54,301 bases of DNA, taken from contig PKTH01000036.1 of the NCBI GenBank assembly GCA_002869265.1, positions 114,224 to 168,524 on the forward strand, read 5' to 3'. Both the position numbers and the translations under genes were made by a program. This DNA comes from Candidatus Parcubacteria bacterium. GTDB taxonomy: Bacteria > Patescibacteriota > Patescibacteriia > Patescibacteriales > BM507. Under the pieces are notes generated by a model. The model made no database searches and was not told the origin of the DNA. It saw only the letters and a program-made list of their open reading frames with translations. Below are positions 21,731 to 33,571 of this stretch, in pieces; positions within the stretch are counted from its first letter, which is position 1; every line of letters begins with the position of its first letter.

Positions 21731-22198
21731 CTATTTTTTCTTTTGCATTCTTTCTCTGTCAATTGTAAGAATGCCATCTAGATGATCTATCTCGTGTTGG
21801 ATAACTCTGGCCATAAAACCTTTGGCATCTATTAAAACTTCATCTCCATTGGGATCGACGTATTTACAGACCACATTTTTTGGTCTTTTTATTTTACAGA
21901 ATATCCCCGGTAAGGAAAGGCAGCCCTCTTCATCCACGTCGGTTCTCCAGGACTTCTTTTTGATAACTGGGTTAATCATTGTGATTTTCCCATCCTTGGT
22001 GTTAATTACGATCATGCGGATATTTTTGCCAATTTGAGGAGCAGCAAGACCAACACCATCTTTTTTTGTCATTGTAAGCGCCATGTCAGAAACCAGCTCT
22101 TGAAAATCTTTGTCTTTTAGAATAGATAAATCAACCTCTTTAGATTTTTCATTTAAAGAGGGCGTTGGATGAGTTACAATGTCTAGTATTTTTGCCAT
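21731..22198 (-). CDS. def: Peptide deformylase
   Basis: This 155-residue metalloenzyme removes the N-terminal formyl group from new proteins. The three family motifs are present: GVGLAAPQIG (48-57), EEGCLSLPG with metal ligand C93, and QHEIDHLDG with H135, catalytic E136 and H139. It works in one pathway with Fmt, encoded nearby. The stop codon abuts the stop of the convergent DedA gene, with no terminator visible between them. Confidence 0.96.
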   Translation of the reverse strand: MAKILDIVTHPTPSLNEKSKEVDLSILKDKDFQELVSDMALTMTKKDGVGLAAPQIGKNIRMIVINTKDGKITMINPVIKKKSWRTDVDEEGCLSLPGIFCKIKRPKNVVCKYVDPNGDEVLIDAKGFMARVIQHEIDHLDGILTIDRERMQKKK

Positions 22199-22303: not shown

Positions 22304-23335
22304 ATGACACAAAATATAAAAAACAAAGAATATGAGCTAAATAAACTTTGGGCGAAGATTGAGAATGAACCAACTGATGGTGATTCTCTTTGCTACATTA
22401 TTAAAAATGCTCCTCATTTACGAGACAAGGCTTGGAAAAAGCTAATTGAAGGTGAGTATACAAATAATGATCTACGTTATGTGGTGGAGAATATTAATGA
22501 GCTAAGAGAGGAAGCTTGGGAAATTTTAAGACAAGAAGACTTGAGTAATTATGAGTTAAAAAACATAATTGAATATTGTCCAGAAATTGCTGATGAGGCT
22601 TGGAAAATTTTACTTAAACAAAAACCAACAAATTACGAACTTCGTGAAATTGCTAGATATTCTAGTGATCATAAAAAAGATGCTTGGAAAAAGCTTCGAA
22701 AAAATAAACCGAGTACAGCAGATTTGGTGTATATTATGAGATTTGTCCCTGAACTAGTGGAAGATGCTTGGAAAATATTTTTAAAGAATCATCCAGACAG
22801 TGATGACTATTTGGATGTTATGAAATTTGTCGATGACAAAAGTATTGATGCTTGGAAGAAATTTATTGAGCTAGAGCCAGATAACAAAAAAATTATTGAA
22901 CTTATTGTTGATTCAGAGAAATTTAGACACGATGCCTGGGTAAAATTGCTTTCGCATAAACCAGAAAACAATGAAATAGCAATGGTTATGAGAGATGTTC
23001 CTAGTCTCAGAAAAGAGGCTTGGTCTAGACTACTTGATAATAATGTTAGAAATGATGATTTAAGGTTTATAATATCTCAAGTTAAAGATTACTCTTATGA
23101 AGCTTGGAAAGTTCTTGCTGCAAGGCAGCCAACCAACTATGATTTGTGCCATGTAATAAAAGATTCTGAAGAGTATAGGAAGAATGCCTGGGATATGTTA
23201 AAAAACAATAAACCAACTAAAGACGACATTCATTTTGTTATGAAATTTGTCCCAGAATTTCGTGATAGAGCAGAAAAGTTATTGGCGGAAACGGATTTCG
23301 ACACAATGAATAAAATAATTAATATTATCAAATAA
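22304..23335 (+). CDS. Alpha-solenoid protein made of 28-residue AW repeats
   Basis: The 343-residue protein is almost entirely a tandem array: 11 consecutive units of exactly 28 residues (from about residue 15 to 322) and a partial twelfth. Each unit starts (A/L)W, then a short helix, often NKPTN, then a second helix with DLxxII and a VPELRxE end. The period never slips. This looks like a two-helix solenoid for protein or nucleic-acid binding. I do not recognise it as TPR, HEAT, Sel1 or LRV. No signal peptide or membrane segment is present. A TATAAT box ends six bases before the ATG, so the mRNA is probably leaderless. The next gene overlaps its stop codon. Confidence 0.8.
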   Translation: MTQNIKNKEYELNKLWAKIENEPTDGDSLCYIIKNAPHLRDKAWKKLIEGEYTNNDLRYVVENINELREEAWEILRQEDLSNYELKNIIEYCPEIADEAWKILLKQKPTNYELREIARYSSDHKKDAWKKLRKNKPSTADLVYIMRFVPELVEDAWKIFLKNHPDSDDYLDVMKFVDDKSIDAWKKFIELEPDNKKIIELIVDSEKFRHDAWVKLLSHKPENNEIAMVMRDVPSLRKEAWSRLLDNNVRNDDLRFIISQVKDYSYEAWKVLAARQPTNYDLCHVIKDSEEYRKNAWDMLKNNKPTKDDIHFVMKFVPEFRDRAEKLLAETDFDTMNKIINIIK

Positions 23336-23613
23336 TGGAACAAGCAGATTTTCAGTCTATTGGTGATCTTTTTTCAAAAAAGAAAGATCAAAAAAAACCA
23401 CCTGCTCATGAGTGGCAGGATTTAGCTTTGAGGATTATTCAGGAATTAAAAGTTCCTAATTTCAAGAGAAACTCGGTATTTAAAGTCTGTAAAGAAAATT
23501 CTAAACAGTTTATCGAGACTTGTCTCTCTGACACAAAAGAGCTCTGCAAGACAGGCTCTAAATGGAGTTATTTTTTTAAGCTAGTTAGTCTAGGGGGTAA
23601 ACCTAAAGAATAA
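23335..23613 (+). CDS. Small hypothetical protein coupled to the AW-repeat protein
   Basis: This 92-residue soluble, basic protein begins MEQADFQSIGDLFSKKKD and has a conserved-looking core around EWQDLALRIIQEL and NSVFKVCKEN, with the end KWSYFFKLVSLGGK. It is predicted mostly helical with three Cys residues. I cannot assign a family. Its ATG overlaps the TAA of the repeat-protein gene, so the two are translationally coupled and may bind each other. Its 3' end overlaps the convergent LigB-like gene by 11 bases. Confidence 0.65.
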   Translation: MEQADFQSIGDLFSKKKDQKKPPAHEWQDLALRIIQELKVPNFKRNSVFKVCKENSKQFIETCLSDTKELCKTGSKWSYFFKLVSLGGKPKE

Positions 23614-24391
23614 AATTCATTACTAAATAACCGACACCAAAAGGATGTTCATAAGAAAGCATCTTGGGGTCGTGTTTTATTTTGGATAATATTCCTTGAA
23701 GAATTAAAATAGATTTTAAACCACACTCATTAGCTTCTTTTATAAGGGTTTCTTTCATCTTTAGGATGCTGTCAATGTCGTTTTTCTTTAAGTATTCTAT
23801 TAGTTTAGCATCGAATTTTTTACCTTTTGAGGAGTAGGGGGCTGGAGAGTCTTTTGAGAGACTGTGAGAAAGATCTCCAGAAGCTACGACTGCTATTCTT
23901 TCGTTGTTGTAAATAAGCTCTCTTTGCAGGAGAACCCCAAAGTCAAAATGTTCTTGGTGGCTAAGACCAGAATAATATATAGGGATAATTTTTAGGTTAG
24001 GTAGTTTTTGAGTAAGAAGGCTTATTGGGACTAAAGACCCATAGTCAAGTTTTTCATTGCTCATTAACTGGAGAGGGGCTTTGGTCTCGAGTCTTTCTCT
24101 TATCTTATAGGCAAGGCCAAAATCGCCTTTGTATTTTAGGGTTGTCGAGTGATCTCCAAATTCTTCAAAAGTCCCTGTAAACTTTGGGCTTAGATTCATT
24201 GTAAAAGAGTTGTTCTGGACTGAACCGTGGGGTGAAATAATAAAAATAGTATCAGGTTTAGATTCTATCAAACTTGATTCTAGTTTTTTAATTGAATTTA
24301 GGGTAGCACTAAGTCTGTTGGTATTTTCTTTCCCGATTGACTGGACGAGAATAGGCGAATGGGGAGAAATGGCAGAAAATACGATTGACAT
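23603..24391 (-). CDS. LigB-family (class III extradiol dioxygenase / AmmeMemoRadiSam B-like) protein
   Basis: This 262-residue protein has the LigB fold marks: an early His in SAISPHSPIL, the SPHGS motif after FIIS, and VVASGDLSHSL with a late GVGYLVMNF. Family members include extradiol ring-cleaving dioxygenases and the AMMECR1-linked MEMO-type proteins; the latter have lost dioxygenase activity. Several candidate metal-site His residues are kept, but the substrate is unknown and no aromatic-degradation genes are near. It follows the secreted lysozyme-like gene on the minus strand by four bases. Confidence 0.8.
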   Translation of the reverse strand: MSIVFSAISPHSPILVQSIGKENTNRLSATLNSIKKLESSLIESKPDTIFIISPHGSVQNNSFTMNLSPKFTGTFEEFGDHSTTLKYKGDFGLAYKIRERLETKAPLQLMSNEKLDYGSLVPISLLTQKLPNLKIIPIYYSGLSHQEHFDFGVLLQRELIYNNERIAVVASGDLSHSLSKDSPAPYSSKGKKFDAKLIEYLKKNDIDSILKMKETLIKEANECGLKSILILQGILSKIKHDPKMLSYEHPFGVGYLVMNFIL

Positions 24392-26626: not shown

Positions 26627-28390
26627 ATGGATAAAAAAGTTAAGGTAAAGTATCTGATATTTTTCTCTTTACTATTATTAGTTTTTGTTTATTCATTCTT
26701 TTCCCCCACCTCTTTCTTAAAGGTTGTTTTCGCTGCAGACCTGCCTCCGGTTGTGAATATTCAATCTCCTGCAGACACGGGATATTTTGTAACAACTGAT
26801 GTGGCTTTAACGGTTTCGGGCACCTCATCAGACGATGGAGTTATCCAGGCTACTAGATGGACAGATTCAGGGTCTGATTGGGCAGGGTCAACTGTTGTTG
26901 CACCTAGTGATGACTGGACTTTTACAACCAATTTACTCGATGTTGGTGTAAATGAATTAGTAGTAAGAACTAGAGACACAATAGGAAACATTGGTTCAAG
27001 TTCAATGACAATTATTCGTTTACCAGCAGATGGTGGTCTATTGGGGTATGCGTGGGCAGAAACCATAGGTTGGGTTAGCTTTTCTTCGCTAAATTGTGAT
27101 CCGGATGGAAATCTCACATCAAATGATGGACTGCCAGGGTGCCCAGTTTACCCTAGCGATGTAACTGTGCCATATTTTTATCAAACAAAAATAGATCCAA
27201 CAACAGGACACCTTTCTGGCTACGCTTGGTCTGAAAATGTTGGTTGGATAAGTTTTAATTATACAAACACAGGATATGCAAGTCTAAACCCTCCAGCAAT
27301 TGGAGTTCAACCTGATGGCTATACTTTTAATAGTAATTGTAATATTTCAGGAACTTGCACGAGTGCTGCAAACTGCTTAGCTTGCTATAATAGTAGTGAA
27401 GAGTTAGGATCTACTGGCGATGGACGAAGAGCGGTTTATGGTTGGGCAAGAGTGTTATCTCTAGGTAATGATGGTTGGATAAAGCTACAAAGCCAAATAA
27501 GCGATGGGGGAGTTGATTATGGAGTAGAATATAATTTAAATACTTATGAATTTTCTGGATTTGGCTGGAGTGGTGGACCTCTTCCACCAGAGACGACTGG
27601 TATTGGTTGGTTGAGTTTTAATTGTATAAATGATAGCTCGTGTGTAGGCTCTGGCTATAAGACGCTAGCTTTTTTAAATCTTCCTCCAAGTACTTCCTTT
27701 GTAGCTGGTTCGCCCTCAGCCCCACCTCTTTCCGAACTTCCTTGCGGGCCTGGGAATGGTTTTGAGGGAGCATGTGCATCTGATTGTGAAAAATATCCAT
27801 TGATAGATTGGGAATTTAATGACCCCGAGGGACTGCCCCAGAGTAAATATCATCTAATTATTGATGAATTAAGTGGATCAGGCTCATATGACAGCGGAGA
27901 AGTTCCTAGCTCTGTAACTCAGTTGAAACTAAATTCAAGTCACTTGACTATGAAATACAACACAACTTATGAGATTACACTAAATACCTGGGATAGTATA
28001 GGCCAAGAATCTGGAGAGATTGTTTATGCCTTCACGACAGATAAGCATAAATATCCAGATGCAAATTTTGAATGGTTTATTGACGAGGGGTCTGAAGATG
28101 AAGAAGTTAAATTCTGGAATAATAGTGTTTATTTCATAAATAGCTCAGATGATCCGAGTGCCTCAGGTATTTGCCATCCTGGTTATCCGGGGCCCTGCAG
28201 CTTTAATTGGGTTTCTTCTGATGCTGACTTAGTTGATGAGTCTTTAGCTACCACTACTGCGAAATTTAGGGACAGTGGTTCAAGTAGAGAAATAATTTTA
28301 GAAGCCACAGACGGAGATACGTATATGTGCGCTAGTTCTACTAGTCTAGATATTAATTTACGACTTCCTACGTGGACCGAAACTAGATAA
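26627..28390 (+). CDS. Large secreted repeat protein (GYAW repeats), paralogue of 29165-33571
   Basis: The 587-residue product has an N-terminal signal or anchor helix, an Ig-like domain (about 40-140, PPVVNIQSPADTGYF), then GYAW-type beta repeats: GYAWAETIGWVSFSSLNC, GYAWSENVGWISFN, YGWARVLSLGNDGWIKL, FSGFGWSG. A fibronectin-like region with EYEITLNTWDS-type strands and an acidic WFIDEGSEDEE segment follow. It ends MCASSTSLDINLRLP-W-ETR. The whole protein is similar to the last 570 residues of the 1468-residue protein at 29165, and the last 47 coding bases before the tail differ at only three positions. It is likely a cell-surface protein. Confidence 0.75.
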   Translation: MDKKVKVKYLIFFSLLLLVFVYSFFSPTSFLKVVFAADLPPVVNIQSPADTGYFVTTDVALTVSGTSSDDGVIQATRWTDSGSDWAGSTVVAPSDDWTFTTNLLDVGVNELVVRTRDTIGNIGSSSMTIIRLPADGGLLGYAWAETIGWVSFSSLNCDPDGNLTSNDGLPGCPVYPSDVTVPYFYQTKIDPTTGHLSGYAWSENVGWISFNYTNTGYASLNPPAIGVQPDGYTFNSNCNISGTCTSAANCLACYNSSEELGSTGDGRRAVYGWARVLSLGNDGWIKLQSQISDGGVDYGVEYNLNTYEFSGFGWSGGPLPPETTGIGWLSFNCINDSSCVGSGYKTLAFLNLPPSTSFVAGSPSAPPLSELPCGPGNGFEGACASDCEKYPLIDWEFNDPEGLPQSKYHLIIDELSGSGSYDSGEVPSSVTQLKLNSSHLTMKYNTTYEITLNTWDSIGQESGEIVYAFTTDKHKYPDANFEWFIDEGSEDEEVKFWNNSVYFINSSDDPSASGICHPGYPGPCSFNWVSSDADLVDESLATTTAKFRDSGSSREIILEATDGDTYMCASSTSLDINLRLPTWTETR

Positions 28391-29164: not shown

Positions 29165-32100
29165 ATGATTTTAGATTCTTTTAAAAAGAATAATTTAATT
29201 TTATTATTTTTTACTCTACTAATATTTATTTCTTTTCATCTTGACGTTCAGGCGGCTGGGGGTGATCCAGTATGGGTCAAGACTTCTAATATTCCTGCTG
29301 TGAGAGAGGTTATGGAAAAGGTTGAATCTGACGCAACTGGTGTATACATCGTTGGCTCAGACCTTGTTCCGGGGAATTATCAGTGGGTAATAGAAAAAAG
29401 AACCCATAGTTCAGGTGCTCTCATATGGAGAAAAACATCTAATCCTAGCTCTGGAGCAGAATATCCTGAATCAATAGCAATTGACAGTACCGGAATTTAC
29501 GTTGGAGGATATGATGCTGCTCCTGGGGACAATCAGTGGCGCATAGAAAAGAGGAATCTTAGCACAGGAGACCCCATCTGGGTGAAAACTTTTAATCTTA
29601 GTACCGATCCTGCCTATATAAAGGGCTTAGCGGTGGATGCAACCGGTCTTTATGTTATTGGTTATGATTCTGGTTTTGGGGACTATCAGTGGCGCATAGA
29701 AAAGAGAAATCTTAATACCGGTGATCCAATTTGGTCAAAGATAAGTAATCCTAGTGCCTCGGCTGACATGGCACAAGATGTTGCGGTTGATGGAACGGGA
29801 GTTTATATTGTTGGTTATGACTATGTCCCAAATGCTGGACGATGGCGTATGGAAAAGAGAAATCTTTCTACTGGGAATCCAATTTGGACAAAAACAGTTG
29901 ATCCAGCTCCTTTGTTTGGGGATTATGCTCTGGCGGTTACGGTTGATTCTTCTGGTTTTTATGTTGGTGGAAGAGATTCCTCAACTGGCTCGGCTAATCC
30001 TCAGTGGCGTATAGAAAAAAGAAATATTTCTACCGGAGATCCTATTTGGACAAAAACTAGCAACCCAAGTTCTTCGTTTGATGAAATCTATGATATGGAT
30101 GTTGATCCCACTGGACTTGTTGTTGTGGGTTACGACAGAGGTCCAGGCGATGATCAATGGCGTATTGAAAAAAGAGACCTTTCTACCGGAGACCCTCTTT
30201 GGACAAAAACAAGCAATATGAGTATAAGTAGTGATATAGCACGGGGGGTGGTAATTGACTCTCCTTATATTTATGTTACTGGTAGAGATTGGACTCCTGG
30301 AACAACAGATTGTCAAATTAGACTAGAAAAACGTTATCTTAATGATTGTTCGTCTCAAGGGGTTGTCTGTACTCAGGATGCAGATTGTTGTACCGGCTTC
30401 TGTCGATCTGATTATGACGGTTCTCCAAAGCGTTGTGTCGACAGTGCTACTGAGTGTGTATATAATACTGGGAGAGTTAGCTCGGGGACTGTAAAATGTG
30501 ATAGTGGTAATAGTAATCTCCTTGTTTGTAATAATGGATCATGGTTTACCCAGGAGGATTGTGGTGTTGATTCATGTTTTGCTTATGGTGGTGGCTATTC
30601 ATATTATAACGATTCAAGTTATGGTTATTGTAACGATGCCTTAGCTGTTCATAGCTGTGATGGAGATCCGAGGATTGCTTGTGCCACAGCTTACGCTTGT
30701 AATGGAACTGCCTCGAAAGAAGATGGTAATAATTGTGCCACATCTTGTACTGTTGATAACCAATGTAATACAGGCTATATTTGTTCAGCAGGTTCTTGTG
30801 TATTACCCGTATCTTGTACTTGGCAACCTTTTTTATATACTGATTATAATGTTTGGTGTAGCTCAGATTATCCCAGACCAGCATGCACACTTGCAATAGA
30901 GGGACAAACCTGGGGAGAAGAAGATGATCAAATGTATACATGTCTAGATAGCGATTTAACAAATTATTTCGGTGGTTCTGGGCATAGTTGGGGGGATTAT
31001 GATTCGCAGTTTATATGTTCCTGTGGTTCCAATCTAGCTCCAACTGCCACAATATCAAATCCCACAGCTCCGCAGTCAGTTTTATTTACTGACTCTGTAA
31101 GCTTTACTGGAAGTGGAAATGATTTTGATGGAACTATTTCTAATTATGAATGGCGTGAAGGAAATTGTAATACTGGGGCGCTTCTTAGTTCTACAGCTAG
31201 TTTTTCAGATACTTTCACTGTGGCTGGGTCACCACATCAGGTTTTTTTAAGAGTTCAGGATAATAATGGTGATTGGTCGACAAATTGTCCATCAATTTCT
31301 ATTACTGTTAGTGCTTTACCCCTATTATCTGCTTGTACTCAAAATAGTGATTGTGATTCGGGATTTTGTAAAACAGATCTTGATGGAATTGGTAGTTTTT
31401 GTTCAAGTGCTGACACTTCTTGTGTTTATGATGCTATCACTGGAGGAAATGCAGAATATATAAGAACCACTGGATACAATCAATGTATTACAGTTGATGA
31501 TGGTTATTATACTTGTAGTGAAGGCTCGGCAGGTTATTGGGGCGCGCTTAATTCTTGCTCCAATCAGGATTGTAAATCAGATGGTGATAATACATACAGC
31601 GCTAGAGTAGATAGCCTTTGTAGTGGAGGCGCTTGTTCGGCAAATCCTTATGTTGATTGTGGTGCAGAGTATGCTTGTAGTGGGATAACATCTAAAGCTG
31701 ATGGAGATGTTTGTGCTGTCAATTGTTTTCCAGATAGTGACAATCTTTGTGCAGATAATTTCCATTGTTATTCAGGTGATAATCTTTGTTATGATGGAAA
31801 CAATGGTAGTTCTTGTGATTCAAACTCAGAATGTATTAGTAATTACTGTGATCCTACAAATGTTTGTGCTGATCTGGACGCAACTGCCCCCCTGGTTCAA
31901 ATTATTACTCCAACCACTGAACCAATGCACGTAGTTACAACAGACAAAATTGATATTTCAGGAACCTCTTGGGATGCTAACGGTATAAGTTCGACTGATT
32001 TGGAAAATACGACAACTGGTGATAGCTGGAGTTGGGGGGCTTCGAATTCATGGTCTAGAACAAACGTAGATCTTGATTTTGGTCCAAACCAAATAATAGC

Positions 32101-33571
32101 GACGGCCGAAGATGGGATGGGTTTAACAAATACTGATTCTTTGGTTGTTTATAGACTTCCACCAAATGGAATTCTTATGGGCTATGCTTGGTCAGATTCA
32201 GTGGGCTGGATAAGTTTTTCATCTCTAAATTGTGATCCAGATGGTAATTTAATTTCAGATAGTGGTATTGTTGGTTGTCCCACCATAGTTGATGCACCTA
32301 ATAATATTGTCAGGCAATACCAAGTAGTCGTTGATGGAGGAACTGGACATCTTTCTGGTTATGCTTGGTCAGAAAATGTAGGTTGGATTAGTTTTCAACA
32401 AGATAGTGCTGGCGACCCTCCGACGGTAGCTCCTCATCCAGATGGATACTCTTTTAACACGCAGTGTCGGACATATAATGATGGAGATTCAACTAATGAT
32501 TGCGTTGCAGCAAATAACTGTATCTCTTGTTATAATATGACAGATGAATTAGGACTCCCTGGCGAAGGGGTTAGAGGCGTACATGGTTGGGCTAGGATTT
32601 TGTCTTTAGATAGTGACGGATGGATTAAATTGAGTTACGAAGTAGGGGACACAGGTGGTGTTGGGTATGGGATGAAATATACAATTCCAAACTTTGAGTT
32701 TAGTGGATTTTCTTGGAATGGTGATTCTCTAGGAAGTGCAGGTCTGGGTTGGTTTAGTCTGAGTTCAAAGAATTGTGATGCTGATGTTGATGGGTTTTCA
32801 GATGGTTTAGGTTCTTGTCCTCCGGCTTCTGTTCCTGTGGCACAGTACAGCGTAGTTGCTATGATAAATATAGCGCCAAGTGTTGCTTTTTCTCCAGGGA
32901 GTGGAGGAGCTATAACTGAATTACCATGTACTTCAGGGAATGGTTTTGAGGGAGCTTGTGTTAGTGATTGTGAAATAGAGCCAAGGATTACATGGCTTTA
33001 TGATGATCCAGAAGGATTTGATCAGGAAGAATATCAAATAATCATTGACGCAGCGACGGGGCCTGAACAATATGACAGTGGAAGGGTTACTGGTAGCACA
33101 TCTGAAATATTCCCTCATAATTTTATGAATATGGAATATGACCAAACATATGATGTATCTCTAAACACCTGGGATAATTTTGGTCTGGATTCTGGCTGGG
33201 TCTATATGACTTTCACTACAGATGAACATAAATACCCAGATGCAGCTTTTGATTGGTTTATAGACAGTGGATCAGAAGATGAGCAGATTAAATTTTGGGA
33301 TAAAAGTATCTACTATATAAATGACACAGATGATCCAAGCGCGGAAGGTGTTTGTCATCCAGGGTATTCAAGTTCTTGTACATATAGCTGGTCTTCTGCA
33401 GATGCTGATATATATACCCCTACAACAGCAAGCACAACGGCTATTTTTAGAGATGCCGGCACAAATAAGCAGATAAAGCTAGAAGTTGCTGATGGTGATG
33501 GTTATATGTGTGCTAGTTCTACAAGTCTAGATATTAATTTACGTCTTCCAAATTGGATAGAGACAAGATAG
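29165..33571 (+). CDS. Giant secreted protein: beta-propeller, Cys-rich, PKD-like and GYAW regions
   Basis: The 1468-residue protein has a signal peptide (likely cut after VQAA). Residues about 30-390 are seven repeats of about 51 residues, each with WxKTSNP, VDxTGxYVVGYD and QWRIEKRNLSTGDP, so a seven-bladed beta-propeller is likely. Two Cys-rich regions (about 395-620 and 720-895, with CTQDADCCTGFC-like motifs) flank a PKD-like domain (about 620-715). The last 570 residues match the protein at 26627: an Ig-like domain, GYAWSDSVGWISF and GYAWSENVGWISF repeats and the same LRLPNWIETR end. It is probably a surface adhesin or binding protein; no enzyme motif is seen. Confidence 0.8.
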   Translation: MILDSFKKNNLILLFFTLLIFISFHLDVQAAGGDPVWVKTSNIPAVREVMEKVESDATGVYIVGSDLVPGNYQWVIEKRTHSSGALIWRKTSNPSSGAEYPESIAIDSTGIYVGGYDAAPGDNQWRIEKRNLSTGDPIWVKTFNLSTDPAYIKGLAVDATGLYVIGYDSGFGDYQWRIEKRNLNTGDPIWSKISNPSASADMAQDVAVDGTGVYIVGYDYVPNAGRWRMEKRNLSTGNPIWTKTVDPAPLFGDYALAVTVDSSGFYVGGRDSSTGSANPQWRIEKRNISTGDPIWTKTSNPSSSFDEIYDMDVDPTGLVVVGYDRGPGDDQWRIEKRDLSTGDPLWTKTSNMSISSDIARGVVIDSPYIYVTGRDWTPGTTDCQIRLEKRYLNDCSSQGVVCTQDADCCTGFCRSDYDGSPKRCVDSATECVYNTGRVSSGTVKCDSGNSNLLVCNNGSWFTQEDCGVDSCFAYGGGYSYYNDSSYGYCNDALAVHSCDGDPRIACATAYACNGTASKEDGNNCATSCTVDNQCNTGYICSAGSCVLPVSCTWQPFLYTDYNVWCSSDYPRPACTLAIEGQTWGEEDDQMYTCLDSDLTNYFGGSGHSWGDYDSQFICSCGSNLAPTATISNPTAPQSVLFTDSVSFTGSGNDFDGTISNYEWREGNCNTGALLSSTASFSDTFTVAGSPHQVFLRVQDNNGDWSTNCPSISITVSALPLLSACTQNSDCDSGFCKTDLDGIGSFCSSADTSCVYDAITGGNAEYIRTTGYNQCITVDDGYYTCSEGSAGYWGALNSCSNQDCKSDGDNTYSARVDSLCSGGACSANPYVDCGAEYACSGITSKADGDVCAVNCFPDSDNLCADNFHCYSGDNLCYDGNNGSSCDSNSECISNYCDPTNVCADLDATAPLVQIITPTTEPMHVVTTDKIDISGTSWDANGISSTDLENTTTGDSWSWGASNSWSRTNVDLDFGPNQIIATAEDGMGLTNTDSLVVYRLPPNGILMGYAWSDSVGWISFSSLNCDPDGNLISDSGIVGCPTIVDAPNNIVRQYQVVVDGGTGHLSGYAWSENVGWISFQQDSAGDPPTVAPHPDGYSFNTQCRTYNDGDSTNDCVAANNCISCYNMTDELGLPGEGVRGVHGWARILSLDSDGWIKLSYEVGDTGGVGYGMKYTIPNFEFSGFSWNGDSLGSAGLGWFSLSSKNCDADVDGFSDGLGSCPPASVPVAQYSVVAMINIAPSVAFSPGSGGAITELPCTSGNGFEGACVSDCEIEPRITWLYDDPEGFDQEEYQIIIDAATGPEQYDSGRVTGSTSEIFPHNFMNMEYDQTYDVSLNTWDNFGLDSGWVYMTFTTDEHKYPDAAFDWFIDSGSEDEQIKFWDKSIYYINDTDDPSAEGVCHPGYSSSCTYSWSSADADIYTPTTASTTAIFRDAGTNKQIKLEVADGDGYMCASSTSLDINLRLPNWIETR

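Follow-up and report, generated by a model that had tools for sequence, protein, structure and literature searches.

What is the role of a protein that is built almost entirely from one repeated unit of constant length, and why is its gene joined to that of a small neighbour? The question is raised by two genes in a stretch of 54,301 nucleotides, here called the window, from contig PKTH01000036.1 of a Candidatus Parcubacteria bacterium (Table 1). The larger gene encodes an alpha-solenoid protein, hereafter the solenoid, and the smaller one its partner.

Table 1. Features of the solenoid locus (positions in the window)
Feature	Position	Strand	Description
Peptide deformylase-like gene (def; presumed identity)	21731..22198	-	Divergent neighbour of the solenoid gene; synteny anchor
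Solenoid gene, alpha-solenoid protein	22304..23335	+	343 aa; eleven 28-residue units between an N-terminal cap helix and a long C-terminal cap helix
Eleven 84-base units	22346..23269	+	Residues 15-322 of the solenoid protein
Partner gene, 92-aa basic protein	23335..23613	+	Belongs to a local branch within a CPR-wide helical family that has no name
AmmeMemoRadiSam-B/MEMO-like gene (presumed identity)	23603..24391	-	Convergent neighbour; synteny anchor

Repeat architecture and predicted fold

The regularity of the repeat is strict. All eleven tryptophans of the protein (residues 16, 44, 72 and so on to 296) mark units, the first of which starts with LW and the ten others with AW, and each of the ten gaps between them is exactly 28 residues. 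The BLOSUM autocorrelation of the sequence reaches 1.35 at lag 28, 1.17 at lag 56 and 1.16 at lag 84, while the maximum among 1000 shuffles of the same protein was -0.25 at any lag. The units themselves have diverged, with a mean pairwise identity of 28% (range 11-43%). In each of them, helix A with (A/L)W..L is followed by a loop of the type ..PTN.. and by helix B, with the pattern D-L-x-x-I-I-x-x-V.

An AlphaFold2 model computed with eight relatives is all-helical (pLDDT 92.7, pTM 0.77). It contains 23 helices: an N-terminal helix (residues 2-19), two for each 28-residue unit and a long C-terminal helix (317-342), arranged as tandem helical hairpins in one elongated domain, as is typical of the alpha-solenoid fold class. 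The protein is confidently predicted to be an all-helical solenoid, in which eleven two-helix units stack into one rigid, capped superhelix. Its core consists of the residues at the AW, L, I and V positions of each unit.

Relation to known repeat families

The alpha-solenoid subfolds listed in a 2024 review comprise ANK, ARM, HEAT, TPR, PPR, PUF, TAL and Sel1 (PMC11514114). The window solenoid falls below every Pfam and NCBIfam cut-off, and comparison with NCBIfam, PHROG and PADLOC gave just weak partial matches, far from a family assignment; a defence-system reading found no credible match in PADLOC. In sequence searches of the PDB, designed repeat proteins were the only ones with credible scores. 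Foldseek comparison of the model with the PDB and with viral models returned no match at E<0.001. The weak best matches are PPR, pumilio, TPR/HAT and ankyrin-type solenoids, among them designed PPRs, mitoribosomal PPR proteins and pumilio, those of the PPR/PUF type having E values of 0.012-0.35 and TMq of 0.16-0.32. Relatives were not found in phage, plasmid and viral collections, and a text search of the literature found no 28-residue alpha-solenoid.

A few scores come close to known models. TPR_TmcB gave 19.7 bits with the window protein, below the cut-off of 27, and 29.6 and 31.3 bits with two relatives, marginally above it and covering part of the model. CP12 barely exceeded its cut-off in one relative, at locus L008. 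TPR_17 was considered as an identity for the unit and set aside: the consensus of the units matches it across 16 residues only.

Comparison with the classical families leads to the same picture. With PPR and PUF proteins the solenoid shares the alpha-solenoid form and a per-unit row of surface residues that is conserved unit by unit; however, their units count 35-36 residues instead of 28, sequence similarity to them was not detected, and the near-invariant AW anchor is a feature of the window solenoid. It has neither the 35-residue unit nor the Pfam match that define a PPR protein. TPRs are likewise two-helix repeats, and a short ...LNP-like motif of the solenoid matches part of TPR_17, but the TPR unit has 34 residues and that of all solenoid relatives 28. 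HEAT/ARM and HAT proteins are alpha-solenoids too, and the concave surface that HEAT repeats use for binding is lined with their B helices (PMC11514114). They differ in unit length (about 40 residues for HEAT/ARM, 34 for HAT), and the solenoid has no sequence match to them in Pfam or the PDB; neither the unit nor the family match of HEAT/ARM is present. The designed dTor, DHR and CTPR proteins have a regular short two-helix unit and score at a low level with the profile of the solenoid unit; they are artificial, with units of 31-34 residues. A preliminary description of the locus had recognized no named solenoid class in the protein, and none of the resources searched provided a family that explains it. 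The solenoid is an undescribed 28-residue repeat class, absent from the public libraries searched.

Distribution and conservation

The solenoid is rare. The source genome encodes it once. Within the order, 8 of the 111 genomes are carriers; they belong to the sampled families f1, f5 and f13, and MAGs of Candidatus Falkowbacteria and Candidatus Parcubacteria are among the named ones. All relatives in the order have eleven units with a spacing of 28 residues, apart from three close relatives that have one additional residue at the junction of units 2 and 3; at L008, one W is replaced by F. Beyond the order, about 380 genomes of the phylum were sampled, and two of them encode distant proteins bearing the 28-residue unit. 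These two proteins, from other classes (L092:4738-5094, 118 aa, which may be truncated, and L093:5134-5919, 261 aa), lie in unrelated contexts without a partner gene.

On a rough concatenated tree, with several low support values and one gene missing for L008, the carriers are scattered. This distribution is compatible both with ancestral presence followed by losses and with transfer at a single locus. The solenoid is under purifying selection, with a dN/dS of about 0.1 in close pairs. The preliminary description regarded the repeat as exactly periodic, modest in identity between units, old and constrained in length. The W spacing and the divergence of the units bear out the first points, and the retention of unit number and length at 37-75% identity between relatives, under purifying selection, supports the last two.

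A conserved face on helix B

When solenoids of different species are compared, the same unit is 53% identical as against 34-37% between different units. Among the eight sequences compared, which represent about five lineages, this unit-specific retention peaks at helix-B positions 16, 17, 20 and 21 (z = 12.4, 8.8, 9.2 and 11.6). At the exposed positions of helix A and the inter-unit turn (3, 4, 7, 8, 23, 24, 27 and 28), z ranges from -0.2 to 5.0 although the phylogeny is shared, and intermediate retention is found at position 14, where helix B starts, and at position 1, where unit 1 is different. The helix-B positions, judged to be exposed from the sequence pattern and the predicted helices, are more conserved than exposed positions 3, 4, 7, 8, 27 and 28 of helix A and the loops (p about 4e-6).

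For units 1 to 11 of the window protein, the residues at the four positions read CYKN, RYEN, KNEY, RERY, VYRF, LDKF, IEVD, AMRD, RFSQ, CHKD and HFKF. Those at L008, a solenoid with 37% overall identity to it, read CEKT, RFEH, KNEY, RERY, LYRF, MNKF, RRIE, CFKD, RFKN, CFKD and EFKY. All eight solenoids have KNEY in unit 3 and, in unit 4, R(E/D)RY. K/R and aromatic residues are abundant on the face. A fixed ligand-binding face, which we infer helix B to form, would be expected to show such unit-specific conservation.

The partner protein and its coupling to the solenoid

The partner has a pI of 9.3-9.9, and its AlphaFold2 model has a disordered N-terminus followed by four predicted helices. The gene is present as a single copy in 80 of the 98 genomes sampled as relatives. 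The family is near-universal in one CPR order, with divergent members elsewhere in the class and in additional classes of the phylum; it was located in the window (23335-23613) and in L011-L038, L057-L061, L090, L091 and L100-L104. Neither the partner nor its family matched a Pfam or NCBIfam model, and Foldseek gave no fold match for the partner model. A C-terminal motif had suggested a DnaD/DnaB_2-like replication protein; this candidate was rejected, as PF07261 was not found in the genome and the partner has no Pfam match. A 299-aa ORF with a partner-like domain at its N-terminus lies beside a lysyl-tRNA synthetase-like gene (L106:1501-2400).

The A of the partner's ATG is also the final base of the TAA stop codon of the solenoid gene, a one-base overlap, as previously described. 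The solenoid gene is directly upstream of the partner gene in all eight carrier genomes, and the distance from solenoid end to partner start is 0 in the window, 3 in L002, 13 in L003, -10 in L005, 5 in L006, -13 in L007, 89 in L008 and 3 in L052, so that an overlap or a gap of at most 13 bases is found in seven of the eight loci measured. In L004 the two genes likewise adjoin, on the minus strand. These overlaps and short gaps suggest that the two genes are translationally coupled, and a physical complex of their products is plausible. The coupling proposed in the preliminary description holds for adjacency and tightness, but the pair is not obligate, because the partner is a core gene that usually occurs without a solenoid (72 of the 80 genomes). 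A promoter scan upstream of the solenoid gene gave nothing convincing.

The flanking genes, which presumably encode a peptide deformylase-like and an AmmeMemoRadiSam-B/MEMO-like protein, adjoin the partner gene in most inspected loci, and within this class the partner family is usually found beside def/fmt. In L012:757-1413, L013:807-1406 and L014:273-1400, unrelated genes with no Pfam match lie between def and the partner, and the slot is therefore variable. Elsewhere in the window, 26627-28390 and 29165-33571 encode large secreted-looking paralogues with similar GYAWSENVGWISF-type repeats and C-terminal regions.

Possible functions

There is, in our estimate, an even chance that the solenoid serves as a recognition scaffold of fixed length for a single conserved, extended ligand, and is an optional add-on to a core protein. 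With four helix-B residues per unit that vary between units and are constant for a given unit across lineages, it would present a fixed row of contacts to such a ligand, and the fixed number and exact length of the units would suit a ligand whose length is fixed as well. Encoded in a tight operon together with the small basic core protein, it would most likely be an optional recognition arm or scaffold for the task of the partner. Nucleic acid and protein carry about equal weight as candidate ligands.

It could be imagined that the solenoid binds single-stranded RNA (or DNA) in a PPR- or pumilio-like manner, at about one nucleotide per unit through the helix-B residues, and guides the partner to a specific transcript or site. 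The conserved unit-specific string of basic, aromatic and N/D/E residues would suit this role, the weak best structural matches include PPR proteins, designed and mitoribosomal, and pumilio, and the def/fmt neighbours act in translation. We nevertheless consider it somewhat unlikely, given the lack of PPR/PUF sequence homology, the unit of 28 instead of 35-36 residues and the pI of 5.7 of the window solenoid. A protein-protein scaffold, whose helix-B face would clasp either the partner or some other conserved protein segment, is possible but less likely than not. Solenoids often bind extended peptides (PMC11514114), the gene pairing is tight and invariant and the partner N-terminus is disordered; however, the N-terminal motif of the partner is kept in solenoid-free genomes too, and no partner residue clearly tracks the presence of the solenoid, position 62 alone being suggestive and confounded by phylogeny. 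It is improbable that the solenoid is an adaptor unrelated to the partner, placed by chance in a variable slot upstream of it. Unrelated genes do occupy the def/partner slot in L012, L013 and L014, but 8 of 8 solenoids are found in the partner slot and none elsewhere in the order, and the overlaps and short gaps point to translational coupling.

Implications

The solenoid adds to the known repertoire a natural alpha-solenoid unit that, at 28 residues, is shorter than those of the classic two-helix repeats. Its unit number is strictly controlled, and it has a clear candidate for a recognition face. A more speculative idea, to which we assign a low probability, is that it is a modular nucleic-acid reader, with a four-residue helix-B code and eleven units for one target, recruiting a CPR core protein. 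If true, this reader would be bacterial, with a new 28-residue unit and eleven units per fixed target sequence. As for the partner family, absent from Pfam and NCBIfam, its function could be approached through the solenoid.
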